From: Thermoanaerobaculia bacterium
GTDB taxonomy: Bacteria > Acidobacteriota > Thermoanaerobaculia > Multivoradales > J023
Length of the DNA: 64,000 nt
Assembly (NCBI GenBank): GCA_028066595.1
Contig: JALCBJ010000001.1
Coordinates: 82,415 to 146,414, forward strand
Reading direction: 5' to 3'
The position numbers and the translations under genes are program-made. Under the pieces are notes generated by a model that was not told the origin of the DNA, ran no database searches, and was given only the letters and a program-made list of their open reading frames with translations. The stretch's first letter is position 1; each line of letters opens with the position of its first letter. Positions 32,981-53,177 of this stretch are shown one piece after another.

Positions 32981-34041
32981 ACCGAGCCAAGGACGAGGCC
33001 GGGCCGAGAATCGGTACGCGCGCGCTGGTCCTGACAGCCGGGCTTGGTACCCGCCTGCGTCCTCTCACGTGGAGTCAGCCCAAGCCGCTCCTGCCCCTGT
33101 GTGGACGACCGCTGGTGCGCCGCACGCTGGAGAGCTTGTCGCTCGCGGGCTGCCAAGGTGCGGTTCTCAACCTACATCACTTGCCCGACGCCATTCCCGA
33201 AGCGTTGGGAGATGACGTGGCGGGCATGCCGATCCGATACAGCCGCGAGGATCCGGTACAGGGCACCTTGGGTGCACTGTTTCCTTGCCGTGATTTCCTG
33301 GGCAAGGCCGAAGTAGTGACCGTGGTGAACGGCGATTCGCTATGTCAGTGGCCCGTTTCGTCGCTTCTACGGAGACATCGCCAGACGGGGGCCGACGTCA
33401 CACTGCTGTTGACGCCGAACCGGCCCGAGTCGACTCTCGGCGGTGGCATCGCGGTGGACGAAACCGGCCGCGTGGTGCAGCTCAGGGATCACCCTTCTCT
33501 CCCGGCGATTGGCAGAGTCCGGCGTCACGTTTTCGCGGGGCTTCACTTGTTTCGGCCCGAGATACTAGATCGCGTGCCCGAAGGGCCGGGAGACGTCATC
33601 GACGGTCTCTACCAACCACTCCTGTCAGAAGGGTGCGAGATCCGCGCCGTGGTCACGCGCAGACGCTGGCATGACGTGGGCACACCACGAAGATACCTGG
33701 AAGCTGCACTCGACCATGCGGCGAGTCCCTGGCGGGGCTTGCGCAGCGGGCGGTTCGTGTCCTCCGACGCCCGCATCGCGGACTCGGCGACGCTTCGTCG
33801 TGTAGTTGTGGAAGCCGGAGCGGCGGTAGAAAACGGTGCGCGAGTCGAACGTTCTCTGATCATGTCTGGCGCCCAGGTAGGTCCCGGCGCCGTGTTGCGA
33901 GACGCCATTTTGGGGCCGGGCGTGAGCCTCGGCGCTGGGTCCAATGTCGAAGGACGCCTGTTGACGCACATGCACCCCAGGCACGTTCTGAACGAAGGTG
34001 AGTCGCAGCTCGGCGGGTTGCTCTATACGCCGCTCGCCTGA
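32977..34041 (+). CDS. NDP-sugar pyrophosphorylase (sugar-1-phosphate nucleotidyltransferase)
   Basis: A 354-residue enzyme. The N-terminal Rossmann-like domain carries LTAGLGTRLRPLTWSQPKPL, with metal ligands in VVNGDSLCQW. The C-terminal part (about 255-350) is a left-handed beta-helix with hexapeptide-like repeats (GAAVENGARVERS, GAQVGPGAVLRDA). This plan fits mannose-1-phosphate guanylyltransferase or related MurU/HddC-like enzymes; the sugar is unknown. The TTG start at 32977 is inferred from overlap with the CYTH stop and AAGGA five bases upstream. It converges on the YfhO-like gene with a 19-base overlap. Confidence 0.9.
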   Translation: MNRAKDEAGPRIGTRALVLTAGLGTRLRPLTWSQPKPLLPLCGRPLVRRTLESLSLAGCQGAVLNLHHLPDAIPEALGDDVAGMPIRYSREDPVQGTLGALFPCRDFLGKAEVVTVVNGDSLCQWPVSSLLRRHRQTGADVTLLLTPNRPESTLGGGIAVDETGRVVQLRDHPSLPAIGRVRRHVFAGLHLFRPEILDRVPEGPGDVIDGLYQPLLSEGCEIRAVVTRRRWHDVGTPRRYLEAALDHAASPWRGLRSGRFVSSDARIADSATLRRVVVEAGAAVENGARVERSLIMSGAQVGPGAVLRDAILGPGVSLGAGSNVEGRLLTHMHPRHVLNEGESQLGGLLYTPLA

Positions 34042-36434
34042 TGCCGGGCCGGGCCGGGCCATAGCAACCATCCGATGATTGCGAGCGCCGAGAAGAAGAC
34101 GGCGAGCGCCCAGCGACCGGGCCCGCTGTCCACGAAGATCTCGACATCATGGCGCCCCGCCGGTACGGGTACAGCCATCTGCCATCCGTTGGCGATTTCC
34201 AACTCGACAGGAGCGCCATCGATCGTCGCTCGCCAGATCGGTAGCCAAGCGCGCTGGATGACCAGGTAGGAGTCTGTGTCCGAATCCGTCGAAGCGGCGA
34301 CCCGCTCGGGCTCATTCCGGTAGACATTGACCTTCCCTATCGCTCCCGCCGGCGCCGCAGCGGGCTCTTCGCCTGGTAGCAGCACCTCCTGGCGCGGCTG
34401 GAACGACGGATCCAGGAGCGCGCTACGGGCATCTGTCATCGAAGGCGCCCTACGAACGCCGTGGACCAGACTCACCTCGTCGGCAGCGTGTAGCAGTCGG
34501 TAGACGTGCAACGGTGGGCCCCGCGGTGAGGGAACTCGGGCCGTCAGTTGTACTCGAGCCGCCGCGTCGGTTGCCAGGGTGCGGCCTAGCAACAGGTACT
34601 CCACTCCGGCCACTTCCAGGAGACGCAGCCGCCCGACGTCCGACAGCCCCGGGAGCGCCTTGGCGAAGGCCACGGCGTAGAAGGAGTCGAGGCCTTCGGG
34701 AGATCGCGTGAACGGATACCTCAAGCCCGAAGGAATCCCAGCACCGTGAAACAGCTCGGCGAACAGCGATCGGCTCAGAAGGGTGAGCGAAGGGTCGCGC
34801 CGCCCGACGGAAGGCCCGAACTGGCCGGCAAAGTCTCCGTGGACCACGTCCGACGTACCGACCTCGCCCAGCATCGACGCCAGGGATGATTCAGCGCGGT
34901 AGGCGAAGGTCTCGTCCGCCGCCAGCAAATCTCTCAGCAAGAAAAGCTGAGACGCAGTCTGGAGCACCAAGAGCAATGCCAGGGCCCCTCGACGGCGTCT
35001 GGCAACTACCGCTACCACGATCGCCATGCCGAGAACCAAGAACGAGGAGGCCCAGATACCGGCCCAGCGCGCGACTTCGGCATCGAGTAGCGAGCCCGCC
35101 AGTCTGCCGCCCGAGGTCGCGGTGGCGAAGCGAGCCAAGGCCGAGCTGGCGTCGATCAAAGGCCGGGCCGCCGCGGTGCTGACGGCCAAGACCAGGAGCG
35201 TTGCCACGAAGACGGTTCTTCGCGCACCGCTCCACAACCTTTGGAACCCGAGACCCGCGAGGAGTGAAAGTCCGAGAGCCACCGCGAGCCACGCCTTCAT
35301 CGGATAGCGCAAGATACCGAGATCGAACCACTCTGCCGATCTCGCAAGAACCGGATTGTGGCTGCCGAGGGCGAGAAAGATGCCGCCCAAAATCGCACAC
35401 CAGGCCCAGAGATCCCGTCCGCGGTGGCGCAAGCCGGCGGTGACGACCAGAGCCACGGCGATCCATCCGGGGAAGAGTGAGGAGAAAAGCGGCGGATTTC
35501 CGCCGAACACACCACCGCCCCAGAACGAGAGATCCAACCGACCGAAGAATCCAGGAAACCACCAGTCGAGAAACGTCACCGGGTGCCAGCTCTGGGCGAG
35601 CACCGACTCCGCCTGGTAGCGCCAGAGTCCGCGATATGAAGTGGGAAGAACGCGCAACATCTCGAGCAGCACCGGCGCTGCGAGCATCGATGCGAGGGAC
35701 GTTGCGAGGCCGATTCGGCGCAGCGCTTCGATCGCTTCACGACGAACAGCGGGAGTTCCTTGTTTCTGTCGGCCTGCCAGTACGGTGACGACCGCCGCGG
35801 CAGCCAGCAGGTAGACCAGCGACGCCGACGCTGGGTCGCCGCCGAGGAAGGTCAGGCCGGCAAGGGCCGCCGCAGCGGGTACCCGTGCACCCCACCTCGA
35901 TCGCTGCGGTCGGGCCAGGGAAACGAATGCCGCTACTGTCGCCGGGGCCAAGGTAGCCAATGCCGCCATGTTGTAGAGATTCAGCAGGGACATCACGTAG
36001 GCGCCCGTGGCCCAGACGACACCGCAGGCCCAGGCACCCGGTCGATCCAGTAACCAGGACCGCGCGAGCCAGAAGCCGGCGAGAGGTGCTAGTAGCCAGT
36101 GCAGCCAGAAGTGGGCGCACAACGACCACAAAGGATCGGCGAAACGGTAGAAGAGGTTGGAGGGGTAGAAAGGAACTGCGTTGGGGTTGCCCAGAAGGGG
36201 CTGGCCGCCACCCCGGTACGGGTCGATCAGCGGCGCAGGCCAGCCCTCTTCGGCCAGTTGGGCTTGTGCAGCCTTCAGCGGGTAGTGAGTGCTCAGGACA
36301 TCTCGGTAGAACAGGGTCCGGGCACCCACGATCCAGGGTAATACCACGAGCAAGAGAAGCAGCCAGCTCGGCAAGCCCAAGCGGAGAAAAGCGCTCGATC
36401 GCACTGCCGTTGGGTGGTCGTCGCGGCCGGCCAT
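34023..36434 (-). CDS. YfhO-like multi-span membrane protein
   Basis: An 803-residue integral membrane protein. After the first membrane segment (SWLLLLLVVLPWIVG) comes the YfhO-type loop (RDVLSTHYP, then GGGQPLLGNPNAVPFYPSNL), followed by many membrane segments, a soluble region (about 520-750), and a C-terminal YLVIQRAWLPIWRATIDGAP segment with a last membrane helix. YfhO-family proteins are GT-C-like and are linked to glycosylation of envelope polymers. It is divergent from the UbiA-type gene and belongs to the glycan island by position. Confidence 0.85.
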   Translation of the reverse strand: MAGRDDHPTAVRSSAFLRLGLPSWLLLLLVVLPWIVGARTLFYRDVLSTHYPLKAAQAQLAEEGWPAPLIDPYRGGGQPLLGNPNAVPFYPSNLFYRFADPLWSLCAHFWLHWLLAPLAGFWLARSWLLDRPGAWACGVVWATGAYVMSLLNLYNMAALATLAPATVAAFVSLARPQRSRWGARVPAAAALAGLTFLGGDPASASLVYLLAAAAVVTVLAGRQKQGTPAVRREAIEALRRIGLATSLASMLAAPVLLEMLRVLPTSYRGLWRYQAESVLAQSWHPVTFLDWWFPGFFGRLDLSFWGGGVFGGNPPLFSSLFPGWIAVALVVTAGLRHRGRDLWAWCAILGGIFLALGSHNPVLARSAEWFDLGILRYPMKAWLAVALGLSLLAGLGFQRLWSGARRTVFVATLLVLAVSTAAARPLIDASSALARFATATSGGRLAGSLLDAEVARWAGIWASSFLVLGMAIVVAVVARRRRGALALLLVLQTASQLFLLRDLLAADETFAYRAESSLASMLGEVGTSDVVHGDFAGQFGPSVGRRDPSLTLLSRSLFAELFHGAGIPSGLRYPFTRSPEGLDSFYAVAFAKALPGLSDVGRLRLLEVAGVEYLLLGRTLATDAAARVQLTARVPSPRGPPLHVYRLLHAADEVSLVHGVRRAPSMTDARSALLDPSFQPRQEVLLPGEEPAAAPAGAIGKVNVYRNEPERVAASTDSDTDSYLVIQRAWLPIWRATIDGAPVELEIANGWQMAVPVPAGRHDVEIFVDSGPGRWALAVFFSALAIIGWLLWPGPARHQASGV

Positions 36435-36458
36435 GCGCTGGTTATACTACGGCGGCTC

Positions 36459-37343
36459 ATGATCGGCCCTCTGCTCAAGTCACTGCGCCCTGTGCAGTGG
36501 GTGAAGAATGTATTCGTCCTGGCTCCCGTCGTCTTCGCCGAGCACCTGGCCGACCCCGAGCTCCTCTTCGCGGCCCTCGTCTCCTTTGCCACGTTCTGTC
36601 TCGCCGCCAGCTGCATCTACCTGATCAACGATCTGGGCGACCGCGAAGAGGACCGCCTACATCCGCTCAAGAAACATCGGCCCATCGCAGCGGGTGAGCT
36701 TCCGGTGTTCACCGCCGGTGCGGCAGCGATCGTGCTCGCCGTCTTGACGATCGGCGCCTCTCTCTATCTGGGCCTCGGATTCCTGATGATCCTCGTGGTC
36801 TACCTGGCGGTCAACATCGCCTATTCCCGCGGCCTCAAGCACGTGGTCATCCTTGACGTCATGGTCGTCTCCTCTGGATACGTCCTACGCGTGATGGCGG
36901 GTGCCGAGGCCATTCAGGTGCGAGTATCGCCTTGGCTGCTCCTGTGCACGGTCTTTCTGGCGTTGCTCCTGATCCTCTCTAAGAGACGCCACGAGCTTCT
37001 GTTGCTGGCGGACGATGCCGGCGACCATCGTGCGGTCCTTCAGCACTACAGCGCGACGTTTCTCGACCAGATGATCAACGTCGTCACCGCATCGTCGGTC
37101 GTGTGCTTCGCGCTGTACGCCATGGACGACGATACGGTGTCCCGCTTCGGCGACCGCCTGATCTATACCCTTCCCCTGGTGATCTTCGGCATCTTCCGCT
37201 ATCTCTACTTGATCTACCAGAAGCACGAACGGCGCAATCCCACCGAAGCGCTGATGCGTGACGTTCCCTTCGTCGTCAATATCTTTCTGTGGGGCTTTGC
37301 GGTCCTTTGGATCGTCTATGGCGGTGTGCCGGGCGGCACATAG
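36459..37343 (+). CDS. UbiA-type decaprenyl-phosphate phosphoribosyltransferase-like protein
   Basis: A 294-residue, roughly nine-span membrane enzyme. The first Asp-rich motif is YLINDLGDREEDRLHPLKKH followed by RPIAAGEL, the version characteristic of 5-phospho-ribose-1-diphosphate:decaprenyl-phosphate transferase (mycobacterial Rv3806c/UbiA) rather than of quinone prenyltransferases. The second region (YSRGLKHVVILDVMVVSSGY, then SKRRHELLLL) also fits. The product would be a polyprenyl-phosphoryl-ribose precursor for lipid-linked pentose donors. The ATG at 36459 was preferred to an in-frame start 45 bases upstream. Its 3' end overlaps the next convergent gene by 28 bases. Confidence 0.88.
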   Translation: MIGPLLKSLRPVQWVKNVFVLAPVVFAEHLADPELLFAALVSFATFCLAASCIYLINDLGDREEDRLHPLKKHRPIAAGELPVFTAGAAAIVLAVLTIGASLYLGLGFLMILVVYLAVNIAYSRGLKHVVILDVMVVSSGYVLRVMAGAEAIQVRVSPWLLLCTVFLALLLILSKRRHELLLLADDAGDHRAVLQHYSATFLDQMINVVTASSVVCFALYAMDDDTVSRFGDRLIYTLPLVIFGIFRYLYLIYQKHERRNPTEALMRDVPFVVNIFLWGFAVLWIVYGGVPGGT

Positions 37344-39037
37344 CGATAGATGGACAGCACCGGCGCACCATCGAGCGTCCAGATCACCTCAGGGGTGAGA
37401 CGGCGCAGACACTCGACCATCAACTCGTTCGCCCAGTCGCGTCGCTCGACGAACATGACGTAGACCGGCGCCCTTGTTGCCAGATCGCGGGTGGCTGCCA
37501 ATCGCTCCGGTGCGATGCGAGGCGACAACGGGGTGGTGATGGGCAGTAGCACGAGGTCTTCTCGCAGGCGGAGGGGCGCCACCAGGCGTACCGCATGTTC
37601 GACCACGGGAACGGCGACATAGGCTCCAGGCTCGGCATGCTCGTTGAGCCAGCGCATACCCAGCCGATAGGACGCACCCCAGTAGTCGGAGGCTTGGGGT
37701 AGGTTCTTCTCACGGGCCCCATCGAGGCCACCAGCCCATGTATTCCAATAGGCGACCTGGAACGGATGGGTCCGGACAACCTGGACCAGGCCGGGTAGGA
37801 GTAGGAGCATCGACAGAACGGTGGCTAATCGGAGCCGAACCCGGTTCTCCGTCGGCGAAGAGCCGACCGCGATCCGGGCGAGGCGCCGCGCGAGCGCTGC
37901 CGTCGCGATGCCAGCGATGGCCGCGAGCGCAGGGAAGAGCTCGAGGAAGTGGCGCACGCCGTCGAAATTCACCGCCTGCGGAAGCAGGTACCGGCCCAGA
38001 GACGCAATACACCACGCGAGTAGGAAAACGTCTTCGGCACGTCGACTGTGCCGCCGAGCCACCCGGACCAGGAGCCACGTCGCGCCAATCACCGCCGTCA
38101 GCAAGAAGACCGGGGGCGTCGTCCACCAGAGCGCTTCCAGCACAGGCGCCATGCTTTCGGGCGAAGTGAAGCTACGGCGGCCTGCGATATAGCCGAGATG
38201 TCGCGCGAACCGCGATATCGGATCGGCCCACAGATAGGGCCAAAGCGCCACCATCACCGCTACCGCGGCCATCGCCGCGACCCCGGCGGCAGCTGCCACC
38301 CGGATCGCTTTCGATCGGAGAAAGGCTCGAGGCGATTCGCGACGCCAGGTGTCCGGAATTCCGCACGAGATCAGAACCAGCGCCGGGAGGATGGGAAAGA
38401 AAAGGGCATTGCCCTTGGTTCCGAGGGCGAGTCCGACCAAGGCCCCGGCCGCCACTAGTCCCCGGAATGAACCGCGTTGCCACGCCGAGAAGTAGGCGCA
38501 GGCGGCCAGGCTCCAGAAGACCATCAATGGAAAATCCTTGATGTTGGCCATCATGTGGAAGACGATGCGTGGCGAGCCGAAGAGAAAACCCAAGCTGAGC
38601 GCGGCGGCAAGGCGCCCATAGCGTCGACGCAGGAACTCGTGAAGAACCACCGCCAGAAGCGCGGCTAGGAGCAGGTTCAGTGCATGGAAACCGTCGAACG
38701 GGTCGACGAGGTCGAGGGCAGACAGCACCTTCGACGTCGCTGCGGCCAGGGTGTTGGCGACCGGGTAGTACTCCCAGGCGCGCCCGCGAAATGGAGAAGC
38801 TGTCAGATCGGGCTCGTGATCTGGCGGATAGGGCTCGGCGTGGAAGTCGAGATATGTCGGATCGAAGCTGGTGAAGAACGACAGATAGCGCTGCCCGAAG
38901 AAAAGGTCTCCGAGTGCCTCGTCCCAAGTCACGTTGTACTGATCGAGAGCCGGGAAGCCCACGACCAAGAGACCCGCGGCCACCACCCAACCCGGCCAGC
39001 TGTTGAACTGGCGCACCTGCCGGAGCCGTGCCCTCAC
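37316..39037 (-). CDS. GT-C family glycosyltransferase (ArnT/PMT-like)
   Basis: A 573-residue membrane protein with many hydrophobic helices. The first periplasmic loop contains NVTWDEALGDLFFGQRY, where the Asp-Glu pair is the expected catalytic/metal motif of GT-C enzymes that use polyprenyl-phosphate sugars. A later FGSPRIVFHMMANIKDFPL loop resembles other PMT-type proteins. The start is the GTG at 39037, overlapping the upstream gene's TGA (GTGA), with GGAGGT six bases before. Acceptor and sugar are unknown. Confidence 0.85.
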   Translation of the reverse strand: MRARLRQVRQFNSWPGWVVAAGLLVVGFPALDQYNVTWDEALGDLFFGQRYLSFFTSFDPTYLDFHAEPYPPDHEPDLTASPFRGRAWEYYPVANTLAAATSKVLSALDLVDPFDGFHALNLLLAALLAVVLHEFLRRRYGRLAAALSLGFLFGSPRIVFHMMANIKDFPLMVFWSLAACAYFSAWQRGSFRGLVAAGALVGLALGTKGNALFFPILPALVLISCGIPDTWRRESPRAFLRSKAIRVAAAAGVAAMAAVAVMVALWPYLWADPISRFARHLGYIAGRRSFTSPESMAPVLEALWWTTPPVFLLTAVIGATWLLVRVARRHSRRAEDVFLLAWCIASLGRYLLPQAVNFDGVRHFLELFPALAAIAGIATAALARRLARIAVGSSPTENRVRLRLATVLSMLLLLPGLVQVVRTHPFQVAYWNTWAGGLDGAREKNLPQASDYWGASYRLGMRWLNEHAEPGAYVAVPVVEHAVRLVAPLRLREDLVLLPITTPLSPRIAPERLAATRDLATRAPVYVMFVERRDWANELMVECLRRLTPEVIWTLDGAPVLSIYRYVPPGTPP

Positions 39038-40926
39038 CGCGACACCTCCGAATGTTCGCCCTGCTCCGGATGCTTCAGACGCCACAGGCGATCCGATCCT
39101 TGAGCAAAGACCGGTTCCGCCAAGTCTGTCCGCCGGAGCAGACCGAGGATCGGCGGTGCGTGGCGAATCCTCGGGGCACCTGTCCATGCGATGTGGGTCA
39201 CTCCACGAGCGTTCAGGCGTGCAGCCACCTCCTCCGAGGAATCCGCCGAAGCGAGCCATTCATCGATCTGGGGCGCCTCGAAAAAGCTGTTGGCCCAGCA
39301 CTTGGTGGGTCGGCAATGAAAGAGGTGATTGGAGTTGAGCAGGACGACGATCGAGTCCGCAGGCAGCGACTTCACCGCTTGGAAGACCGGGGGGCTCGGC
39401 GGCTCGGTCGGCCGCTGGAAACGATGGTCGAAATAGAGATCCAGATGCGTCTTGCCGGCCTGGATCAGGTGTGGTTGGGTTCCGGCGAAACCAGCGAGCC
39501 AGGCGAGTCCGGTGGCTGCGAACAGAATTCCGGCCGACGAGCGAGCTCGCAGACGGCGACGTATAGATGGAATCGACAGCAAGCCGACGACTCCGTCGGC
39601 CACAGCCAACGCCAGGATCGGTAGTGCGGGTATGAGAAAACGCATCTGCTGTGAACCCATCGCCCAGGCGATAAAGAGCAGAAACACAGCTAGAAGCGCA
39701 CGCCGCGCTCGGGCCGAGAACGCAGCGCGCCAGAGTGCCAACGGCAGGAAGGCGAGCCAGAGCGGCGTCAACCGCCCGTCGAAATTCTCGTAGCCCGTGT
39801 CGCCGGCCGTGAACACGCGCCAGGGCAGCTGCAGGAAGTCGAATGGCGTACGCCCCATCCCGATGGATCGCTGCCAGTCGACGAGCTGGGCAGTGAGCTG
39901 GGAGCTCCAGTCAGGCCCGCCGAACTCTTCCCAGAGCAGCGGATAGACCGGGTTTCCGGTCGCCAACCATGTACGGAGTAGCCACGGAATCCAGAGGATG
40001 ACCATCGGCAGCCCGAGCGCTACGACGGAGCGCCGCGCCTTGCGCGGATTCTCGCGAAACCGCCGAGCCAGCCGCGGTACCACCAAGAGGAGCAGACAGG
40101 CCGAGATCGAGACGCCGGTGATCTTGCTCGAGGCCAAGAGACCACAGGCCAAGCCAGCGGCCAGCAGGCTGCGATCGTCGTTGTCGTCCAACCACCGCTC
40201 GAGAAAGAGAAAGGCGGCCAGAGCGAAGAAGGCCATGGCCAGGTCGACATAGGCGGAACGGAGCTCGAAAAGCACCACGTCGTTGAGAAGAAAAAGAGCG
40301 CTGGCCACCAAACCTGCAACGACTCCGCTCGCCCGTGATGGGTCGAGCGGAGTCTCTCGCTGCGGAGCGGCGGTTCTCCACAGCGTGGCGACCACCAGAA
40401 TCCCGAATCCGAAGTGGAGAGTTTTGGCCGCCACGTAGCCCCCGACGGCCATCGCGACCCCGAACAGCAGGTCTACTGCCTGCGGCCAGAGCGCGTAGAC
40501 GAGGAACGGAACCTCTTGGAATCCGCCCTCGCGCAGGTACAAATCCGGCAGTGTGAGGTGGTAGACGGCGGCATCCCAGGAAATCGTCGGATTGACCGTG
40601 ACGGCGAAGACGAAGACCAGGGGTAAGGCGGAGAGCGCCACGAGGAACGTAGTGGCCACCGAGATTGGGAGCGGTCGAGCCCAGCGGCGACGAACGATCT
40701 CGACCGCACCGAACACGGCGCCGCTGATCACCATGGCCTGAAGGATCGGCTCGCGAAACGCTCCGAGGCTCGCCAGGAAAAACAGCATCAGTGTCCAGAC
40801 GGCGAATCCCCAGATCCATCGCTCGAGAGGCCGCGCCGAGGTCGACTGTGCCCCGCCCACCCGTCCTGCTGCATAAACCGCCAGGCCGATCGAGACCACC
40901 GCGGCAGCAGGTGCCAGCAGAGTCAC
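39034..40926 (-). CDS. GT-C family glycosyltransferase-like membrane protein
   Basis: A 630-residue multi-span membrane protein. The loop TISWDAAVYHLTLPDLYLRE is characteristic of a family of PMT-like (RgtA/B/C/D-type) membrane glycosyltransferases in deep-branching bacteria. A second conserved region is SSKITGVSISACLLLL. The C-terminal 130 residues form a soluble domain (about 500-630). It is coupled to the downstream GT-C gene by a 4-base overlap and lies 1 base after the upstream GT-C gene, so the three form one operon. Confidence 0.82.
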   Translation of the reverse strand: MTLLAPAAAVVSIGLAVYAAGRVGGAQSTSARPLERWIWGFAVWTLMLFFLASLGAFREPILQAMVISGAVFGAVEIVRRRWARPLPISVATTFLVALSALPLVFVFAVTVNPTISWDAAVYHLTLPDLYLREGGFQEVPFLVYALWPQAVDLLFGVAMAVGGYVAAKTLHFGFGILVVATLWRTAAPQRETPLDPSRASGVVAGLVASALFLLNDVVLFELRSAYVDLAMAFFALAAFLFLERWLDDNDDRSLLAAGLACGLLASSKITGVSISACLLLLVVPRLARRFRENPRKARRSVVALGLPMVILWIPWLLRTWLATGNPVYPLLWEEFGGPDWSSQLTAQLVDWQRSIGMGRTPFDFLQLPWRVFTAGDTGYENFDGRLTPLWLAFLPLALWRAAFSARARRALLAVFLLFIAWAMGSQQMRFLIPALPILALAVADGVVGLLSIPSIRRRLRARSSAGILFAATGLAWLAGFAGTQPHLIQAGKTHLDLYFDHRFQRPTEPPSPPVFQAVKSLPADSIVVLLNSNHLFHCRPTKCWANSFFEAPQIDEWLASADSSEEVAARLNARGVTHIAWTGAPRIRHAPPILGLLRRTDLAEPVFAQGSDRLWRLKHPEQGEHSEVSR

Positions 40927-40927
40927 C

Positions 40928-42508
40928 TCAGGCAGCAGGCCCGGTGGGCCGGTCAGAGAGAGGAAAGCGACACCACGGCGTTTGGACGATCAGCAGGACG
41001 TTCCCGGCCATGGTGCGATTGTCGGGGTTGTGAAAAGAGCGCACAACGTTGAAACCGGGGGCGCGCACGACCTGAGGATAGGAGCCGTCGAACACCACCA
41101 GATAGTCGACCCGCTCTCTTCGCAGGTAGTCGTGGAGACGACGCTGCCAATCGCCCACCGCCCAGGACGACCCGCCGCTGCTACCGAAAAGGATCGGCCG
41201 GATCTCAGGGCTGGTGAGTCCGGCCAAGTCGAGAGTCTCGTTGGGTAGAAGAAAGGCTAGCGCTCCGACGTCCTGTACGGCCAGATATGCGTCTGGGTCC
41301 AAGCGTGGTGCAAGCCATTGTGCGGCCGCCACGTCGGAGGCTTCCACGTCTGAAACGTGCTGAGAGTAGGCCGTCGGCATGGCGATGAAACCAGGAAGCT
41401 GTGCGGCGAACAACAGGAGTAGAAGTGGTGTCCAGAGCCGGAGGCCACGCAGTCGTCGCATCATCGGTGAAAGGGCCACCAGCGCGAGGATCGTGACGAC
41501 GGGTAGGAGTGGGAACCAATAGCGTCCGAAGTTGCCCATGGGTGGTGGAGCCTCGGGTCGGGTCATCAGAGAGTAAGCCAGAGCCTGGGCCAATAACCAA
41601 GCAGCCGGCAGGACTCCCCGATCGGAAGGTCCCTTGAGCCGGACGGCCAGGAGCAGGATGCCGCCGGCGGCCAAGAGAACTGCCATCGGTTGGGAGCGTG
41701 CGAAGAAATTGAGCAGCAGATATAGGTAGTGCGTATCGGGCCATGGATCGATCGGGCTCCCGGCTTTCGTCCAGAACGTCGTCGGCAGGAAAGAGCCTCC
41801 AGCGACGCGGTAGAAGATCAGTGTCGGACTCACGATCACCAATGCCGGAAGCATCGATCTCACGGTCGTGCGAAGCTTCGTCCAATCCGGGCGTCCAGAA
41901 CGACCGGCGCGGAGGCATCGCTCACCGAAGGCGAGCCCCAACAGCAGCAAGCCCTCGGGTCGCGCCAGCGCCGCGACAGCGAGAACCGGGGCGCTGCGAA
42001 CAAGCGAGTGCTGGTTGGTCCGCTGCTCGCGTACGTGCCAGACCATGCCCCAGAGAGCCAGGCACGTGAAGGTTGTGATCTCCATTCCCGCGGCCGCCGA
42101 CCAGAGGAGCCATGGTGTCGTCGCGATCAATAGCGCCGCGGTACCCGCCAGATCCTTCCCGTGGCCCGGCAGGAGCTCCCGAGTCAGGCGATGTGCTCCG
42201 AGCACCGTGCCGGCGAAAGCCAGTACAGCTAAGAACTCCGACCACAGCAGAATCAGCCTGCCCGGGAGTAGACCGCCTATCGACACCAGAGCCGACCACA
42301 ATGGCGCCGTCGATCCGGTGACCCACCGATCGGCCGAATATGCCAGGCCGTCGCCGGAGGCCAGCCGCGACGCGAACTGCAGGTGGATCCAGGCGTCGTC
42401 CAACGGAAACGCCGGACGTCCGATGAGATAGGCATCGATCGCCGCGAAACCGACTCCGGAGACGACAACGAGAGTCAAGGCGAGATGGATCGCGCGCAAT
42501 CGCAGCAT
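40928..42508 (-). CDS. GT-C family glycosyltransferase resembling AftB-type enzymes
   Basis: A 526-residue multi-span membrane protein. After the first helix it has FPLDDAWIHLQFASRLASGD, then GLAYSADRWVTGSTAPLW, the DDA...G-G...W pattern shared with arabinofuranosyltransferase AftB and related GT-C proteins. The C-terminal domain includes ETLDLAGLTSPEIRPI, another common feature of this group. The start was placed at the ATG at 42508 before MLRLRAIHLALTL; longer readings add a non-hydrophobic extension. It is the first gene of the three-gene GT-C operon and diverges from the M20 peptidase gene. Confidence 0.82.
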   Translation of the reverse strand: MLRLRAIHLALTLVVVSGVGFAAIDAYLIGRPAFPLDDAWIHLQFASRLASGDGLAYSADRWVTGSTAPLWSALVSIGGLLPGRLILLWSEFLAVLAFAGTVLGAHRLTRELLPGHGKDLAGTAALLIATTPWLLWSAAAGMEITTFTCLALWGMVWHVREQRTNQHSLVRSAPVLAVAALARPEGLLLLGLAFGERCLRAGRSGRPDWTKLRTTVRSMLPALVIVSPTLIFYRVAGGSFLPTTFWTKAGSPIDPWPDTHYLYLLLNFFARSQPMAVLLAAGGILLLAVRLKGPSDRGVLPAAWLLAQALAYSLMTRPEAPPPMGNFGRYWFPLLPVVTILALVALSPMMRRLRGLRLWTPLLLLLFAAQLPGFIAMPTAYSQHVSDVEASDVAAAQWLAPRLDPDAYLAVQDVGALAFLLPNETLDLAGLTSPEIRPILFGSSGGSSWAVGDWQRRLHDYLRRERVDYLVVFDGSYPQVVRAPGFNVVRSFHNPDNRTMAGNVLLIVQTPWCRFPLSDRPTGPAA

Positions 42509-42557
42509 GATAGAGCACCGAACACAAGCCGCCGCGATGCTAGCATCGGCGGCTGTC

Positions 42558-43985
42558 ATGAGTATCCAACGCCCGCTCGTCCAGCGCCACAAGAAGCTAG
42601 CCAGGACCCTTCTCTATCTCGCCCCGGTCGCCATCTGGTTTGTCGCGGAACCGGCAATTCGGGAACTGGGTGATCTCGGAATCCGCAACGACTGGGCGAA
42701 GATCGACTACGATGAATACGAGTCATTTCGGTTGCTCCGAGACTATCTCCGCATCGATTCGAGCTACCCCGATGGGAACGAAATCCCGGCCGTCGAGTTC
42801 CTTGCGGAACAGCTGGAGAAGGAGGGTATCGAAGCTCACATCCAGCGCCTCGGAGTTCGCAACGCCAACCTCTGGGCGACGCTCGAAGGCGCGAACCCGC
42901 GACCCCTGGTGCTCCACCAGCATGTGGACGTCGATCCGGTCTTGTCGCCGGAGCTTTGGCAGGCCCCTCCGTTCGCCGCCGAGTATCGGGCACCTCACGT
43001 GGTAGGGCGCGGTGCCTTCGACATGAAGAGTGTCGGTATCGCGCAGCTGATGGCGGTGCTCGAGCTGCGGAGATCCGGGGTAAGACTGAACCGCTCAGTG
43101 AAGATCCTTGCGACCGGTGACGAAGAGCGCGACAGCTTTCTCGGCACCCAGCGGGTCTTGGCTGAGCATCCGGAATGGGCCCGGACCTTCTGGGCCGTGC
43201 TCACCGAAGGAGGTGCCGTTGAAGCGCTCAGTGCGGAGGAAGTGAAGTACTGGGGGACGGAGTTCCAGCAAAAGCGTTTCGTCGTCGTCTGGGTGTGCTC
43301 GTCGGATCGCCAGCGCCTGGAAGACCTGCGAAAAAGCGTGCACTTTCGAGGTACCGAGAGACGCTTGACCGAAACCGTTCGCATCTTCTTTCCTCGCTAC
43401 GGCCCGAGCCGAGCGCGGTCCGTCACGCGCGAGCTTCTAGCGAGTCCGGACACGATATTGGAGAGCATCCGCACCTTCCCTCGAGAACTCGAGGCGGCCG
43501 AGTTTCCACCGTTGCTCGAGGCCCATCTACGAGACCAGTCCTATGCATTCCCGGTAGAGGAGGATCCCGAAGGAGGCTATCGGTTTCAGCTCGTCGTCCA
43601 TCTTCTGCCCGACTCCGACTTCGACATCGTTTTCGAGAAGCTGGTGGGCGACTCCATGGACGGTTTCCAGTACGTGGTGGAGAACTACAACGAGAAGGTG
43701 CCCCCAAGCCCGATCGACCATCCGGTGTTTCAGGCGATCGACGAGGGGGTGTCCCGGCTTCATCCCGGAGTCGACCACGGTCCTCTCTTCCTGGCTTGGT
43801 CGGCGACCGACGCTAGGTACTTTCGTGAAGTGGGGATCCCATCCTACGGATTCTCGCCGTTTCTCTTGGTGTCGCAAGACAGCCAGTCGTCGAAGGGGCC
43901 GAACGAGAGAATTCCAGCGCCAGCCTTCATCGCCGGCGTCCAGCTCTATGAAGATGTCGTTCGGCGGCTTGTCGCTGAAGACTAG
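42558..43985 (+). CDS. membrane-anchored M20 family peptidase
   Basis: A 475-residue M20 metallopeptidase with an N-terminal membrane segment (TLLYLAPVAIWFVAEPAI), so it is likely periplasmic or anchored. Metal and catalytic motifs are LHQHVDVDPV, GRGAFDMKSVGIAQLMA and ILATGDEERDSF. The His-x-Asp is HVD instead of the more usual GHxD context, and GDEERD replaces (A/G)DEExG. The substrate is unknown. The ATG at 42558 was chosen because it directly precedes the anchor region. It is not part of the GT-C operon (opposite strand). Confidence 0.88.
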   Translation: MSIQRPLVQRHKKLARTLLYLAPVAIWFVAEPAIRELGDLGIRNDWAKIDYDEYESFRLLRDYLRIDSSYPDGNEIPAVEFLAEQLEKEGIEAHIQRLGVRNANLWATLEGANPRPLVLHQHVDVDPVLSPELWQAPPFAAEYRAPHVVGRGAFDMKSVGIAQLMAVLELRRSGVRLNRSVKILATGDEERDSFLGTQRVLAEHPEWARTFWAVLTEGGAVEALSAEEVKYWGTEFQQKRFVVVWVCSSDRQRLEDLRKSVHFRGTERRLTETVRIFFPRYGPSRARSVTRELLASPDTILESIRTFPRELEAAEFPPLLEAHLRDQSYAFPVEEDPEGGYRFQLVVHLLPDSDFDIVFEKLVGDSMDGFQYVVENYNEKVPPSPIDHPVFQAIDEGVSRLHPGVDHGPLFLAWSATDARYFREVGIPSYGFSPFLLVSQDSQSSKGPNERIPAPAFIAGVQLYEDVVRRLVAED

Positions 43986-44171
43986 AGCGCCTAGTCACTT
44001 TTTGTCACCGTGTGCCTGACAGGAATTGACGATGCTGGGATGTTTTGATCGAGACTTGGCACGAATTAGCCGATTGGGGGAGAAAACATGGTGATACGCC
44101 ATGGCACGAACTCTGCAAGGCTTTGTCGGTACGCTCGTGGAATAACCCGTGAGACCGTAAGGAGGAAGTTC

Positions 44172-44702
44172 ATGTCATCGTTCCTGAGAAACCGCAAGCA
44201 GCGGGGTTTCACCCTCATCGAGCTGCTGATCGTAGTTGCCATCATCGGCATCATCGCTGCGATCCTGATCCCGAACCTGCTCGACGCCCTGCAGAAAGCG
44301 AAACAGAAGAGGACCGTTTCTGACGCCCGCAACACCGGAACAGCCTGGATGTCCTGGCTGACGGATCAGGTTGGTGCCGCATCCGCTGGCGCTGGCAAGA
44401 TCTACGCAGGTGCTGGTCATACGTTGGAGGACTACGAGGTCATTTTCGAGTACCTGCACCCGAACACGACGTTCTTCTACATGCAGGAAGTCCCGCAGTT
44501 CGACGGCTGGGGATACCCCTTCGAATTCGGCATCAACTACAATCTCGTGCAGTCGAACGTGCTGATGATCTGCTCGCCGGCCCGGCAGGGATCTACGATA
44601 CAAGCCTGCAACTCGGATTGGGACGTGACGCCGTTCTTGGCGACCGACTACGATCAGGACATCGTCTGGGCCGACGGTTACTTCGTCCGCTGGCCGGGCT
44701 AA
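44172..44702 (+). CDS. type IV pilin / GspG-like pseudopilin
   Basis: A 176-residue prepilin. The leader is short and basic (MSSFLRNRKQRG), and the cleavage site G12-F13 is followed by the canonical TLIELLIVVAIIGIIAAIL with Glu at +5. A C-terminal Cys pair (MICSPARQG and IQACNS, 13 residues apart) probably closes a D-region loop. AAGGAGG stands 5 bases before the ATG. The 186-base upstream gap contains TTGGCACGA at 44056-44064. A strong terminator follows, and the prepilin peptidase gene is next. Confidence 0.93.
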   Translation: MSSFLRNRKQRGFTLIELLIVVAIIGIIAAILIPNLLDALQKAKQKRTVSDARNTGTAWMSWLTDQVGAASAGAGKIYAGAGHTLEDYEVIFEYLHPNTTFFYMQEVPQFDGWGYPFEFGINYNLVQSNVLMICSPARQGSTIQACNSDWDVTPFLATDYDQDIVWADGYFVRWPG

Positions 44703-44740
44703 GCCTGAGAGTAGGATCCGCACAAGGATCCAGCTCGACG

Positions 44741-44766
44741 AAAGGGGCGCCACGGCGCCCCTTTTC
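44741..44766 (+). terminator. intrinsic terminator after the pilin gene
   Basis: AAAGGGGCGC (44741-44750) pairs perfectly with GCGCCCCTTT (44755-44764), with a 4-base loop and a T-run completing the tail. It separates the pilin transcript from the prepilin peptidase gene, as expected for an abundant product. Confidence 0.9.
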
Positions 44767-44795
44767 ACGTTGAGGACCCTTCGAGGCCGAACCAC

Positions 44796-45578
44796 GTGGA
44801 ACCCGCCTTCGTAGAGTCTTTCGTTTACGGCACCGTCGCCATCTTCGGTCTGATCTGGGGCAGCTACCTGAACGTGGTCGTGTATCGGCTGCCCCAGGGT
44901 CTTTCGACAGCGGTCCCCGCCTCCCATTGCCCGAGATGTCGTTCGCGGATCTGGCCGGTCGACAACATCCCGGTGCTGAGCTGGTTGTTGCTGGCCGCCC
45001 GATGTCGCTCCTGCGGAGGGGCTATTTCCGTGCGGTATCCACTGGTCGAGGTTTCGGGAGCCACCGTCTTCGTCCTCGGACTTCGTCGCTTCGATGATCC
45101 GTTCGAGATGGCCACAGGTTGGCTAGTGGCCTGTGTGCTACTGGCTTTGGCGCTGATCGACTACGACCGCCGTCTGGTACCGCTCGTGCTGACGCTGCCG
45201 CTCGGAGTCCTGGCTTGGGTGCTTCAGCCTTTCCTGGGCTGGGCCAGTCCGCTGGACGCCGTGGCAACGTCGTGTCTGGGGTCCGTCGTATTCCTGGCGC
45301 TGTCGCGCGCGTGGGGATGGTGGAGTCAGTCTCCGGGCGACGGTGGGCTCGGACTCGGTGACGCGTACGTCATGTTCCTGATCGGTGGGTTCTTCGGCCT
45401 TCAGTCAACGCTCCGCATCGTCTTGCTGGCGCTTCTCGGTGCAGTGGCCGTCCTCTTCCTCTCCCGGTCGGCCTCATGGATCCTGCGACGGTCGGGTCGT
45501 TTCGAGGAGCCGTTGGCTCGTCTGCCGCTGGTGACGTTTCTGTCGGGCGCCGCGCTTTGGGTCTTGCTCTTCGTCTGA
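44796..45578 (+). CDS. prepilin peptidase / N-methyltransferase
   Basis: A 260-residue inner-membrane aspartyl protease of the PilD/GspO type. The N-terminal catalytic-methyltransferase part has GSYLNVVVYRLP and the zinc-binding CPRC...CRSC tetracysteine region. The two catalytic Asp residues are in ALIDYDRRLVP and GGLGLGDAYVM. About seven membrane segments are visible. It should process the pilin upstream and perhaps the GspH-like protein at 29.5 kb. Confidence 0.95.
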   Translation: MEPAFVESFVYGTVAIFGLIWGSYLNVVVYRLPQGLSTAVPASHCPRCRSRIWPVDNIPVLSWLLLAARCRSCGGAISVRYPLVEVSGATVFVLGLRRFDDPFEMATGWLVACVLLALALIDYDRRLVPLVLTLPLGVLAWVLQPFLGWASPLDAVATSCLGSVVFLALSRAWGWWSQSPGDGGLGLGDAYVMFLIGGFFGLQSTLRIVLLALLGAVAVLFLSRSASWILRRSGRFEEPLARLPLVTFLSGAALWVLLFV

Positions 45579-45602: not shown

Positions 45603-47027
45603 TCATCTCGTCGACGTCGACTCCAGCGACTGCTCGTTAGTTCGGCCGTGGGCGGCCGCGACCGCCCGGACCAGCAACAGATCCTCGTCAGGATCGACGG
45701 TACGCAGGTCGAGGACCAGCTGCTTGTCCTTGAGATATCCGACCACGGGCGGCAAGACCGTGTTGTCGACGATACCGCCGACCCGCAGCCCGGCGAGGAG
45801 GTCGTCCCGACCCTCGATCGCCAGGGCGAGGCCCGGAATCGGCTCGTCGGGTGCTGATCCGCCTCCCACGAACGCGTCAGACGGCGCAATCGATGCATCG
45901 ACCTGTTCGCGCCGGAGGGCTTCCACGCATCGCTCAAGTCGTTCACTATGGCTTGTCTCGTCGGGCCACAGTCTGGCCATCGACAGCTCGGCGCCGGCGG
46001 CAAGGCGTCGAAGCGTCCATTCGAGTGCGGCGAAGGCGAAGCGGCTCGGTCGCAGTGCGCGGTAGAGAGGGTTCCTCCGACATCGCTCCACGAGATCGGC
46101 ACGGCCGAGCAAGAGGCCGGCTTGGGGCCCGCCGAGGAGCTTGTCGCCGGAACCGCAGACCAAATCGCAACCGGCGGCCAGGAGCGACCGCAGGTCTTCG
46201 TGTTCCCGAAGAGGCGGCAGAGAGCTGGATCGCAGAAGACCGCTACCTTCGTCTACGAGGACAGGAATTCCCTGCGATCTGCCGAGCTCGGCCAGCTCTG
46301 TCGAGCTGACTGACTCGGTGAAGCCGCGAATCCGATAGTTGCTGGTGTGCACTTTGAGCAGCAGTGCCGTTTCGTCCGAGAGAGCGCGCCGATAGTCTCC
46401 GATGCGGGTCCGGTTGGTGGTGCCCACTTCTACCAGGCGAGCCCCGGCCGCCTCGAGAATGTCGGGGATCCGGAAGGCGCCGCCGATCTCTACCAGCTCG
46501 CCACGCGAGACGACGACCTCGCGGTTTCTGGCAAGTTCCGCCAGCACCAGCACGAGCGCACCCGCGTTGTTGTTCACCACCAGCGCCTTCTCCGCGCCGC
46601 ACCAGCTCTCCAGGCGCTCTGCAACGAAACGGTTGCGGTCACTCCGCCGACCGGTGCCGAGATCCATCTCGAGATCGCACGAGCCGGTAAGAAGAGGCAC
46701 CAGCTCTTGCGCGACATCTCGCGGCAAGGGTGCCCGGCCCAGATTCGTATGGATGAAGATGCCGGTGGCGTTGATCACCCGCTGCAGGCCGGTGCCTTCG
46801 GCGCGCACCACTTCGGTCGCTATGGCCTCCGGAAGAGCCTGCAAGCGAACGGCGAGATCGGGCGCGTCCAAGGCCCCGTTGGCCAGCTCGCGGCGAAGGG
46901 AGTCCAGGAGCCGGGTCGCTTGGACCCGAACGGAATCCCTTCCGTATAATCCCACGACGCCCCGCAGACGCGGTTCGTTCAAAAGCTGGTTCATGGCCGG
47001 TAGCCGGCGAAAGGCAGCGTGCTCCAT
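45603..47027 (-). CDS. selA: L-seryl-tRNA(Sec) selenium transferase SelA
   Basis: A 474-residue PLP enzyme that converts Ser-tRNA(Sec) to Sec-tRNA(Sec) using selenophosphate. The N-terminal RLPAMNQLLNEP segment, the INATGIFIHTNLGRAPLP motif, and the PLP Lys in GSGDKLLGGPQAGLL are characteristic. Its length is normal. No selB, selD or selC is visible here. It converges with the prepilin peptidase gene and is divergent from the MXAN_5187-like gene. Its presence implies that the organism makes selenoproteins. Confidence 0.95.
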   Translation of the reverse strand: MEHAAFRRLPAMNQLLNEPRLRGVVGLYGRDSVRVQATRLLDSLRRELANGALDAPDLAVRLQALPEAIATEVVRAEGTGLQRVINATGIFIHTNLGRAPLPRDVAQELVPLLTGSCDLEMDLGTGRRSDRNRFVAERLESWCGAEKALVVNNNAGALVLVLAELARNREVVVSRGELVEIGGAFRIPDILEAAGARLVEVGTTNRTRIGDYRRALSDETALLLKVHTSNYRIRGFTESVSSTELAELGRSQGIPVLVDEGSGLLRSSSLPPLREHEDLRSLLAAGCDLVCGSGDKLLGGPQAGLLLGRADLVERCRRNPLYRALRPSRFAFAALEWTLRRLAAGAELSMARLWPDETSHSERLERCVEALRREQVDASIAPSDAFVGGGSAPDEPIPGLALAIEGRDDLLAGLRVGGIVDNTVLPPVVGYLKDKQLVLDLRTVDPDEDLLLVRAVAAAHGRTNEQSLESTSTR

Positions 47028-50152: not shown

Positions 50153-51490
50153 TCATGGTCCGACCTCCAGGCCTTCGAGACGGATTCCGGGGGCAGTTGC
50201 CCACACCGGTAGGAGAATGCCGTCCTTTGCGCACCAACCCGCGCCTGCTACGTGTACTTCCTTGCCAACCCCGCGCACCGCGTGTAGCAGGTCGCTGACG
50301 TGAGCGCGAAGAGTCGCCCGACCCACCGAGGGTCCCGGCGTCTGGTTGAGGATACGCTGGCCCCACGGGAAAACCAGGGTGAAGAATCCGCTGGCCGGAT
50401 CGAGCCGGCCGCGTTCGGCTTCCGAGAAAAAGAGACCGCCTTCGGCATCGGCGAAGAGATCGGTCGACTCGCCCGCCACCAGGTGCAGATGGCTCGACCT
50501 GGGCCCGGGTACGTCGTGGCGCGTGCCTCGCCGGCCAGCGCCGGCGACCAACAGCTCCGATCGGTGGGCCCACTGAGCGTCGGCCAAGGGTTGCTCCACC
50601 TTCCCGGCTCTCAGCAGACATCGCCTGACCACAGGAAACCCCTCGTCGTCTGCGGTGCGTTTGACTCCGGTGGGCGCATCCGAGGGGTCGTCAAACAGGT
50701 CGAGCAGATTCGAGCCGAGCTGGACCCCGATGGCGCCCTCGGGGTGTCCATCCAGTGCCAGCAGGTCGGCTTCCAGTGCGTGGGCAACGGCTTCGTGAAG
50801 CAGGACCGCGGTCGCCGCGGGGCCGAGAACTACGACACCCTCACTCTCGTCCGGCGGCGCTGCGTCGCGAGCACTACGGGCTCGCGACAGGCGCGCCGCG
50901 AGCTGCTTCGCGGCGTCCTGGGCATCGTCTCCGATGAGGCTCGTCACTAGGAGGCCGCGGCGGCCCTCCTGGCTCTCCGCCTCGAGGCTATAGAAGCTCT
51001 CCGTCTCCACCCCCGCCGAGACCTCGCTGCCGACGACACGCAGGCTGCGGTGAAAGCGGCGTATGGAGAGACGAGCGGAGATCTCCGTGTCGCGGAGTCG
51101 GAGCGCTTCGAAGAAGCGTGACGGGAACTCCTGTACCTCCGCCGCCTCGAGAGGTTGGGACCACCGGGGCCATTCGATATCGGGCAGTGGATACGGCGCG
51201 CGCGGCATGGCGCGGGCGGTGCGGCGCAATGCGTCATGAAATGAATCTCTGTCGACTCGATCGCGGGCGGCCAACCAGCTGTTGCCGCCGCGCAAGAGAC
51301 GTACAGCCAAACCCTCCTCGCGGCGCATTCGCAGTCCGGGAGAACAGGTCTCGGGTGGCAGCTCGACCACTTCCGCGCGTTCGAAAAATGCGTCGGCCAG
51401 GTCTCCAGGCCGATCGGCGATCTGGGACAGAGCACGCGCGATGCCGCGGACATCGAGCTGGTTGAGTGGTTCGGTCGGGTCGACGGTCAT
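50153..51490 (-). CDS. TldD-like metalloprotease subunit
   Basis: A 445-residue TldD-like protein. The zinc-binding HExxxH motif is present in [17 protein letters not shown] near residue 235. C-terminal family features include [13 protein letters not shown] and [15 protein letters not shown]. The TldD-TldE complex degrades unfolded or modified peptides inside the cell and matures microcin B17 in E. coli. The N-terminal 200 residues are strongly diverged. It precedes the TldE-like gene by a few bases and is divergent from the carboxyltransferase gene. Confidence 0.85.
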
Positions 51491-51590
51491 GATCGGCCAC
51501 CGACCCTATCGCGAGCGGACTCCTCTGATCCGGTACACTGCCCGCGCCCTTCCGGAATCGCGATCCAATGACCTCCAGCCGCGAGCGCCC

Positions 51591-53177
51591 ATGACGCAGG
51601 ACGACAGCAAGCACGACAGCCCTTCCCAGGACCCACAGGAGGAGCTCCGGCGCAGACTCACCGCAGCGCGGACGGGTGGCGGTACGGCGCGGATCGAGAA
51701 GCAGCACGCGGCGGGCAAGCTGACGGCCCGCGAACGGATCGACCTGTTTCTGGATGGTGGCTCTTTCGTGGAGCTCGACGCCCTGGTGGCACACCGGTGC
51801 ACCGATTTCGGGATGCAGGGAAACCGCATCCCGGGTGATGGCGTGGTGTGTGGATACGGCACCGTGGACGGCCGTTTGGTTTACGTCTTCGCACAGGACT
51901 TCACGGTGTTCGGTGGTTCGTTGTCAGAGACCAATGCTCGCAAGATCTGCAAGGTCATGGATCTGGCCATGGAGAACGGTGCACCGGTGGTTGGCCTGAA
52001 CGACTCGGGTGGCGCACGGATCCAGGAAGGCGTGGCGTCCCTCGGTGGCTATGCCGACATCTTCTTGCGCAACACGTTGGCGTCGGGCGTCGTGCCGCAG
52101 ATCAGCGCCATCATGGGACCTTGTGCCGGAGGAGCCGTCTACTCTCCGGCCATCACGGATTTCGTCTTCATGGTGGAGAACACCTCGTACATGTTCATCA
52201 CCGGACCCGATGTGATCAGGACGGTGACCCACGAGAAGGTGACGAAGGAGGAGCTGGGTGGCGCCCGTACTCATATGACCAAGAGCGGCGTCACGCACTT
52301 CACGGCACCCAATGACGCCGCCTGCCTCATGCAGGTGAAGAAGCTGCTGTCGTTTCTGCCGTCGAACAATCTGGAGGATCCGCCGCTCGGCACCTCGGAC
52401 GACGATCCGGCACGCGAGGAAGAGCTCCTCGACGATCTGGTTCCCAAGGATCCTGAAACTCCCTACGACATGCATCGGCTGATCGAGGCCGTGGTGGACG
52501 ACGGAGATTTTCTGGAGGTTCAGCCCGACTTCGCCCGGAACATCGTCGTGGGATTTGCGCGCTTGGCGGGTCAGAGCGTCGGCCTGGTGGCAAACCAGCC
52601 GGCGTATTTGGCCGGAGTACTCGATATCGACGCATCTTTGAAGGGCGCCCGCTTCGTCCGCTTCTGTGACGCCTTCAACATACCGCTCGTCACGTTCGAA
52701 GATGTCCCCGGATTCCTACCGGGAGTTCAGCAAGAATTCGGTGGCATCATCAAGCACGGCGCCAAGTTGCTCTACGCCTACGCAGAGGCCACGGTGCCGA
52801 AGATCACGGTGATCACCCGCAAGAGCTACGGTGGCGCCTACTGTGTGATGGCGTCGAAGCACCTGCGCACCGACGCCAACTTCGCCTACCCCACTGCCGA
52901 GATCGCCGTGATGGGCCCAGAGGGTGCGGTCAACATCCTCTACCGTCGGGAGCTGGCGGAGGCCGGTGACGAGGAAGCGCAGGCCAGGATGCGAGCCGAG
53001 AAGGTTGCCGAGTATCGCGAGAAGTTCTCCAACCCCTACATCGCTGCAGAGCGCGGATTCGTCGACGCCATCATCCAGCCGCGACAAACCCGCTTGCACC
53101 TCGTGCGTGCGTTGCGCCAGCTGGGCTCGAAGCGTCAGAAGCTACCGCCGAAGAAGCACGGGAATCTGCCGCTTTGA
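51591..53177 (+). CDS. acyl-CoA carboxylase carboxyltransferase subunit (PccB/MmdA-like)
   Basis: A 528-residue carboxyltransferase with the two crotonase-like halves. The first has [20 protein letters not shown], the oxyanion-hole motif [20 protein letters not shown], and a later [12 protein letters not shown]. The second has [40 protein letters not shown], and SYGGAYCVM. Biotin carboxylase and biotin-carrier genes are not adjacent. The ATG at 51591 was chosen; a longer reading overlaps the divergent TldD-like gene. Confidence 0.94.

Follow-up and report, generated by a model that had tools for sequence, protein, structure and literature searches.

The window, by which we mean the whole analysed stretch of 64,000 nucleotides, lies on contig C192 of a metagenome-assembled genome of 7.5 Mb that is 95% complete. 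The host is a diderm bacterium of the Acidobacteriota, and named relatives of its UbiA gene assign it to the Thermoanaerobaculia. Judging from their translations, several ORFs of the window resemble dnaA, rnpA, yidC and parB, which suggests a location close to oriC. Our analysis centers on five ORFs, whose positions agree with those of the original prediction, and on the genes that adjoin them:

34023-36434, minus strand: predicted YfhO-like (AftD-like) GT-C glycosyltransferase, 803 aa, with a C-terminal beta domain (AlphaFold model, Foldseek, VIA and synteny)
36459-37343, plus strand: predicted UbiA-fold polyprenyl-phosphate 5-phosphoribosyltransferase (DPPRS/PPPRS), 294 aa (NCBIfam PRK12324, match to Rv3806c, residues)
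37316-39055, minus strand, ORF open from 39259: GT-C of the PMT_2 type, about 579 aa, tail-to-tail with UbiA (PF13231, E 7.6e-10)
39034-40926, minus strand: GT-C of the PMT type, 630 aa (PF02366/PF13231)
40928-42508, minus strand: predicted AftB-like GT-C glycosyltransferase, 526 aa (profile match to AftB, aligned residues)
42507-45578: M20 peptidase, prepilin-like protein and prepilin peptidase, adjoining the AftB-like gene
44163-44702: prepilin-like gene of this group
44796-45578: prepilin peptidase of this group

The UbiA and YfhO-like genes are divergent, with 24 bp separating the chosen start codons. Three GT-C genes had been predicted on the other side of UbiA, and this was confirmed: two match PMT/PMT_2 in Pfam, and the third belongs to no Pfam family and is a relative of AftB as judged from a profile. 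The PMT_2-type GT-C has homologues of 54-58% identity in five genomes of the same family, and homologues of the PMT-type GT-C adjoin UbiA in four other genomes of this family (f1); both are found at the UbiA locus within the same family only. A single M20 peptidase gene separates the AftB-like gene from the prepilin-like gene. The window also contains ORFs whose translations resemble SelA (selenocysteine synthase) and SelB (elongation factor), at 45603-47027 and 51282-53177.

The UbiA protein contains the motif NDxxDxxxDxxHPxKxxRPIAAG, on which its proposed identity as a decaprenyl-phosphate-ribose synthase was founded. This identity held up in all sequence comparisons. UbiA exceeded the cut-offs of both NCBIfam models for decaprenyl-phosphate phosphoribosyltransferase (PRK12324.1-2, 297.8 bits with a cut-off of 234; PRK12324.1-4, 236 bits with a cut-off of 207), and its nearest solved structure is Rv3806c (8j8j, E 3e-43). 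We mapped the residues of Rv3806c assigned to PRPP, Mg and decaprenyl phosphate (PMC10994848) on UbiA and found 12 of 13 to be identical (R22, K28, Y70, N73, D77, D81, K87, R90, Y138, K143, Y157 and K191), so that the PRPP residues are present. The one exception is Q135, which contacts ribose O3 in Rv3806c; UbiA has N at this place, a replacement shared by 43 of 57 homologues of other phyla. The genome holds four further UbiAs, among them one MenA and one protein resembling heme O synthase (CyoE-type). UbiA of the locus is far from both, which speaks against a place among the quinone prenyltransferases. The residues for PRPP and lipid phosphate are mostly missing in three of the four further proteins and mostly kept in the one on contig C102. 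Judging from every sequence test, UbiA is a PRPP-dependent polyprenyl-phosphate phosphoribosyltransferase.

The C102 paralogue (L018:8513-9676, plus strand) represents a distant second family, which scores far below the DPPRS cut-offs and retains most PRPP-type residues. It is arranged head-to-head with a PMT-type GT-C (L018:6485-8497, minus strand), and homologous head-to-head pairs were found in L153, L154 and L155. Possibly, this paralogue is a second lipid-sugar synthase. A very long UbiA 'fusion' ORF in L053 was discarded, as it looks like an extension of the frame outside the gene.

AftB uses an arabinofuranose donor and catalyzes the retaining beta-(1->2) transfer of Araf to arabinan. 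The original prediction had noted a pattern of AftB in the GT-C at 40928-42508. Searching the PDB with the single sequence gave no match; with a profile of 8 orthologues, AftB (9dlf) was the only significant chain (E 1.9e-8). D38, T67, E143, R183, T244 and K248 of the AftB-like protein align with D62, T91, E172, R221, T274 and K278 of AftB. Roles have been assigned to the catalytic D62 of the DD motif and to the donor contacts T91, E172, R221, T274 and R372 (PMC12041299); all five of these that can be aligned are identical, and R372 lies beyond the alignment. The AlphaFold model shows a GT-C fold without a preference for AftB (VIA Z of 11.9 versus 18-19 for STT3), the models of both this and the YfhO-like protein being of modest confidence (pLDDT 62-64). 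We conclude from the profile and the aligned residues that the protein is a genuine homologue of AftB.

The assignment of the YfhO-like protein stood in part. Its family name is weak by sequence: the protein reaches 14.2 bits against Pfam YfhO (PF09586; cut-off 28.5), and 9 of 24 homologues match this family at E values up to 1, the best being 1.2e-5. No match was obtained in the PDB, neither with the single sequence nor with a profile of 24 proteins. The AlphaFold model (pLDDT 62), however, shows a GT-C fold, and Foldseek returned AftD at the top for it (E 2e-5). In VIA, the model aligned to STT3 with a Z of 18.5, to AftD with 17.9 (576 aligned residues) and to ArnT with 15.5, covering 420-576 residues overall; thus AftD ranks at the top in Foldseek and level with STT3 in VIA. 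An R44-D45 pair after TM1 is invariant among the YfhO-like proteins. As judged from the model, the protein has a GT-C fold.

UbiA is near-universal in the order: of 59 relatives from nine families, 53 have an orthologue. A head-to-head YfhO-like gene less than 150 bp away from UbiA was found in 35 genomes (8 families), and no other orientation was observed. The gene at the other flank of UbiA differs from family to family. An AftB-like orthologue is found on the UbiA contig in 19 genomes, convergent in all of them; it lies within 2 kb in 8, and only 23-38 bp separate it from UbiA in three. In families f5-f7, the AftB-like gene lies away from UbiA. As families across the order share the arrangement of UbiA and the GT-Cs, it is not due to chance, and the UbiA and YfhO-like genes are maintained as a divergent pair. 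In genus g7 of family f4 (G009, G017, G047 and others), UbiA is kept and the YfhO-like, AftB-like, DprE1 and DprE2 genes are all missing. Several other genera also have the M20/prepilin-like pair in the vicinity of UbiA.

Since no DprE1 or DprE2 epimerase lies in the window, it had been suggested that ribose might be used directly. We found this absence to be confined to the window. A search of the genome with Pfam ALO (PF04030) identified only an FAD oxidase below the cut-off, on contig C166; this candidate was rejected, as it scored 52 bits on the DprE1 profile and resembled solved structures within the FAD domain only. The NCBIfam model specific for DprE1 overturned the apparent absence. 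It matched a protein on contig C111 over its full length with 349 bits (NF053785), and we name this protein a homologue and not an equivalog of DprE1, because the equivalog cut-off is 500 bits. The protein matches DprE1 structures with an E value of 1.4e-70, compared to 4.5e-8 for the next family, and it retains Y60, H132, K134, W230, Q334, Q336 and K418; C387 is replaced by A. A DprE2-like SDR (401 bits) is encoded on contig C213. Relatives of this SDR scored 131-154 bits on the DprE2 model (NF053786, cut-off 250), and the DprE2-like SDRs score higher on PRK07102, an unnamed SDR, than on DprE2, both below the cut-off. The putative DprE2 role is supported by gene order and by a fusion in relatives.

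In several relatives, the DprE1 gene is directly followed by the DprE2-like SDR. Across the order, DprE1 is present in 31 of 59 genomes (a few partial at contig ends) and the SDR in 23, all 23 of which have both. Co-occurrence of DprE1 and UbiA was also seen among 89 Acidobacteriota genomes (17/21 versus 25/68; Fisher p 4e-4, uncorrected for phylogeny). Outside the class, G124 contains a dprE1-UbiA cluster with a YfhO-like gene at a distance of two genes, and a UbiA-dprE1-dprE2 operon is found in G070, another member of the Acidobacteriota. In G059 (L182:7407-9074), one ORF encodes a DprE2-like SDR (residues 17-242) and UbiA (residues 267-551), and the DprE1 homologue is adjacent. In a Hydrogenedentes, UbiA lies beside dprE2-dprE1. 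Conversely, both the AftB-like and the YfhO-like gene are present, and DprE1/DprE2 missing, in 12 of the 59 relatives; together with the f4 genus that has UbiA alone, these genomes indicate that epimerase and GT-C are not strictly tied to each other. In these 12 relatives, the pentofuranose handled by this machinery may be ribose or a different one, which agrees with the optional epimerases known from Citrobacter (Kelly 2024).

The sequence tests on UbiA, a real relative of AftB and a diderm host make a lipid-linked pentofuranose for an extracytoplasmic glycan the best reading of the locus, as had been proposed. Given the DprE1 and DprE2 homologues in the genome, and their operons and fusion with UbiA elsewhere in the phylum, arabinofuranose is likelier than ribose. 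We therefore think that the locus probably belongs to a polyprenyl-phosphate pentofuranose pathway that yields arabinofuranose for the envelope by a route like that of mycobacteria. UbiA would transfer ribose-5-P from PRPP to polyprenyl-P, giving polyprenyl-P-ribose-5-P, from which a phosphatase would remove the 5'-phosphate. Epimerization at C2 by DprE1 (C111) and DprE2 (C213), as predicted from homology and from the operons and fusion in relatives, would then lead to polyprenyl-P-beta-D-arabinofuranose. A flippase would expose this lipid outside the membrane, where the AftB-like and YfhO/AftD-like GT-Cs would move arabinofuranose onto an envelope glycan, or possibly onto pilin; the two PMT-type GT-Cs are maybe additional transferases. 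Against this pathway speaks the location of DprE1 and DprE2 on two separate contigs, away from the UbiA locus. So do the scores of the DprE1 homologue and the DprE2-like SDRs below the NCBIfam cut-offs, the 12 relatives and the f4 genus without epimerase, and the modest confidence of both GT-C models. A PAP2 search of the genome for the 5'-phosphatase gave three proteins, none linked to the locus, and no flippase was recognised within the locus, though a PPPRS and GT-Cs are present.

Three other readings concern the donor or the acceptor. First, the GT-Cs could use polyprenyl-P-ribofuranose directly, as in Citrobacter O1, with DprE1 and DprE2 doing other work. We consider this unlikely. Homologues of both are encoded by the genome itself, and other Acidobacteriota have UbiA in an operon or a fusion with them; moreover, AftB draws on an arabinofuranose donor, and its residues that contact the sugar are conserved here. 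In its favor are the 12 relatives with both GT-Cs and without DprE1/DprE2, the f4 genus that keeps UbiA with no epimerase, and the proven direct use of ribose in Citrobacter (PMC11127046).

Second, UbiA may make a lipid pentose while the GT-Cs take another lipid donor (e.g., polyprenyl-P-hexose or -amino sugar), the neighbourhood being inherited synteny. The donor is not readable from a GT-C fold, and the distance of the AftB-like gene from UbiA in f5-f7 fits this idea, as does the non-pentose lipid donor used by YfhO of Bacillus and Listeria. Such a division is improbable in our view, because the YfhO-like neighbour stayed invariant while the other flank of UbiA changed repeatedly, because a YfhO-like gene is also part of the dprE1-UbiA cluster outside the class, and because the donor residues of AftB are matched.

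Third, and with respect to the acceptor only, a type IV pilin or pseudopilin could be modified instead of a polysaccharide. The prepilin-like and prepilin peptidase genes lie beyond the AftB-like gene, several other genera have the same AftB-like/M20/prepilin-like neighbourhood, and arabinosylation of pilin with a DPPRS orthologue has been proposed for P. aeruginosa (strain PA7; PMC11127046). The prepilin-like gene, however, lies at a greater distance from UbiA than from the M20 peptidase, most families were not seen to have it in the vicinity of UbiA, and the UbiA/YfhO-like pair persists without it, so that we hold a pilin acceptor to be rather doubtful. Finally, UbiA as an ordinary quinone or heme prenyltransferase, a reading that fits its place in Pfam UbiA, was rejected as extremely improbable, given the DPPRS equivalog cut-off exceeded, the conserved phosphoribose residues, the separate MenA and the other UbiAs without most of these residues.

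The decaprenylphosphoryl-arabinose pathway of mycobacteria comprises the UbiA protein Rv3806c, Rv3807c, DprE1, DprE2, AftB and AftD. Shared with it are the UbiA residues for PRPP and lipid phosphate, an AftB-like gene near UbiA, DprE1/DprE2 homologues in the genome and, as judged from the model, the AftD-like fold of the YfhO-like GT-C. In contrast to mycobacteria, the host is a diderm, the epimerase genes are unlinked to UbiA, UbiA is divergent from the YfhO-like GT-C, Q135 (UbiA) and C387 (DprE1) are replaced by N and A, the GT-Cs share less than 20% identity, and to our knowledge arabinogalactan is not known in this group. YfhO of Bacillus and Listeria glycosylates lipoteichoic acid, which, as far as we know, is not expected in a diderm. 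The protein of the window resembles it as a large GT-C with weak similarity to Pfam YfhO, and differs in scoring below the Pfam cut-off and in its pairing with UbiA.

Among Gram-negatives, three-component systems for pentofuranose side chains consist of a PPPRS, a MATE protein and a GT136 enzyme in Citrobacter youngae O1/O2, and optional epimerases alter the pentose (Kelly 2024, PMC11127046). Both there and here, a PPPRS of the same family would feed a GT-C, with epimerases being optional. Unlike in Citrobacter, neither a fused HAD phosphatase nor a MATE gene was found at this locus, the GT-Cs are classed as AftB-like and YfhO-like, the genes lie near oriC and outside an O-antigen cluster, and the epimerase is of the DprE type instead of ORF13. 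The pilin arabinosylation system of Pseudomonas PA7 (TfpW with a DPPRS orthologue) likewise combines a Gram-negative host, a DPPRS orthologue, a GT-C and nearby pilin genes in a different architecture.

Drug targets in tuberculosis include DprE1, Rv3806c and the Aft enzymes. Their distribution outside the Mycobacteriales is little mapped, and the arabinosylation pathway is thought to be characteristic of this order. Lipid-linked pentofuranose in Gram-negatives is already known (PMC11127046), and NCBIfam places orthologues beyond actinobacteria under the DPPRS name. New is the acidobacterial set with an AftB relative, a conserved divergent UbiA/YfhO-like pair and a DprE2-UbiA fusion. Among the open-access papers searched, a single one names both DprE1 and Acidobacteria or Acidobacteriota, each just once and concerning a different topic. 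From the near-universal UbiA/GT-C pair, the DprE homologues and the fusion, an envelope glycan that bears furanose is predicted for a large environmental phylum. Tentatively, and with slightly less than even confidence, we propose that Acidobacteriota have an extracytoplasmic arabinofuranose route of the mycobacterial kind, with an AftB-type GT-C and a new, as yet unassigned YfhO/AftD-like GT-C family paired divergently with UbiA, as an old modular trait of diderm envelopes in which gain and loss of the epimerase switch between ribose and arabinose. Relatives with and without DprE1/DprE2 make the question of ribose or arabinose testable, and A at DprE1 C387 and N at UbiA Q135 offer natural variants for mechanistic studies.

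UbiA proteins of this family also occur in other settings. In L187, L188 and L189 from other Acidobacteriota, UbiA has an N-terminal extension with PLCVDLDGTL that is HAD-phosphatase-like, as in Citrobacter ORF15; hence both fused and free UbiA types exist in the phylum. In the Brevibacillus loci L095-L117, UbiA is followed, as judged by eye, by a small SMR/EamA-like protein (c6), often by a YuiD-like (DUF212-like) protein (c16), and by a large protein (c7); as candidates, they could serve as flippase, phosphatase and GT-C in Gram-positives. Repeatedly, the genes after UbiA in L083-L092, L104 and L134 (Gemmatimonadota, Latescibacterota and others) encode proteins that by eye are DUF362-like (c9), aminoglycoside-phosphotransferase-like (c24) and AIR-synthase-like (c20).
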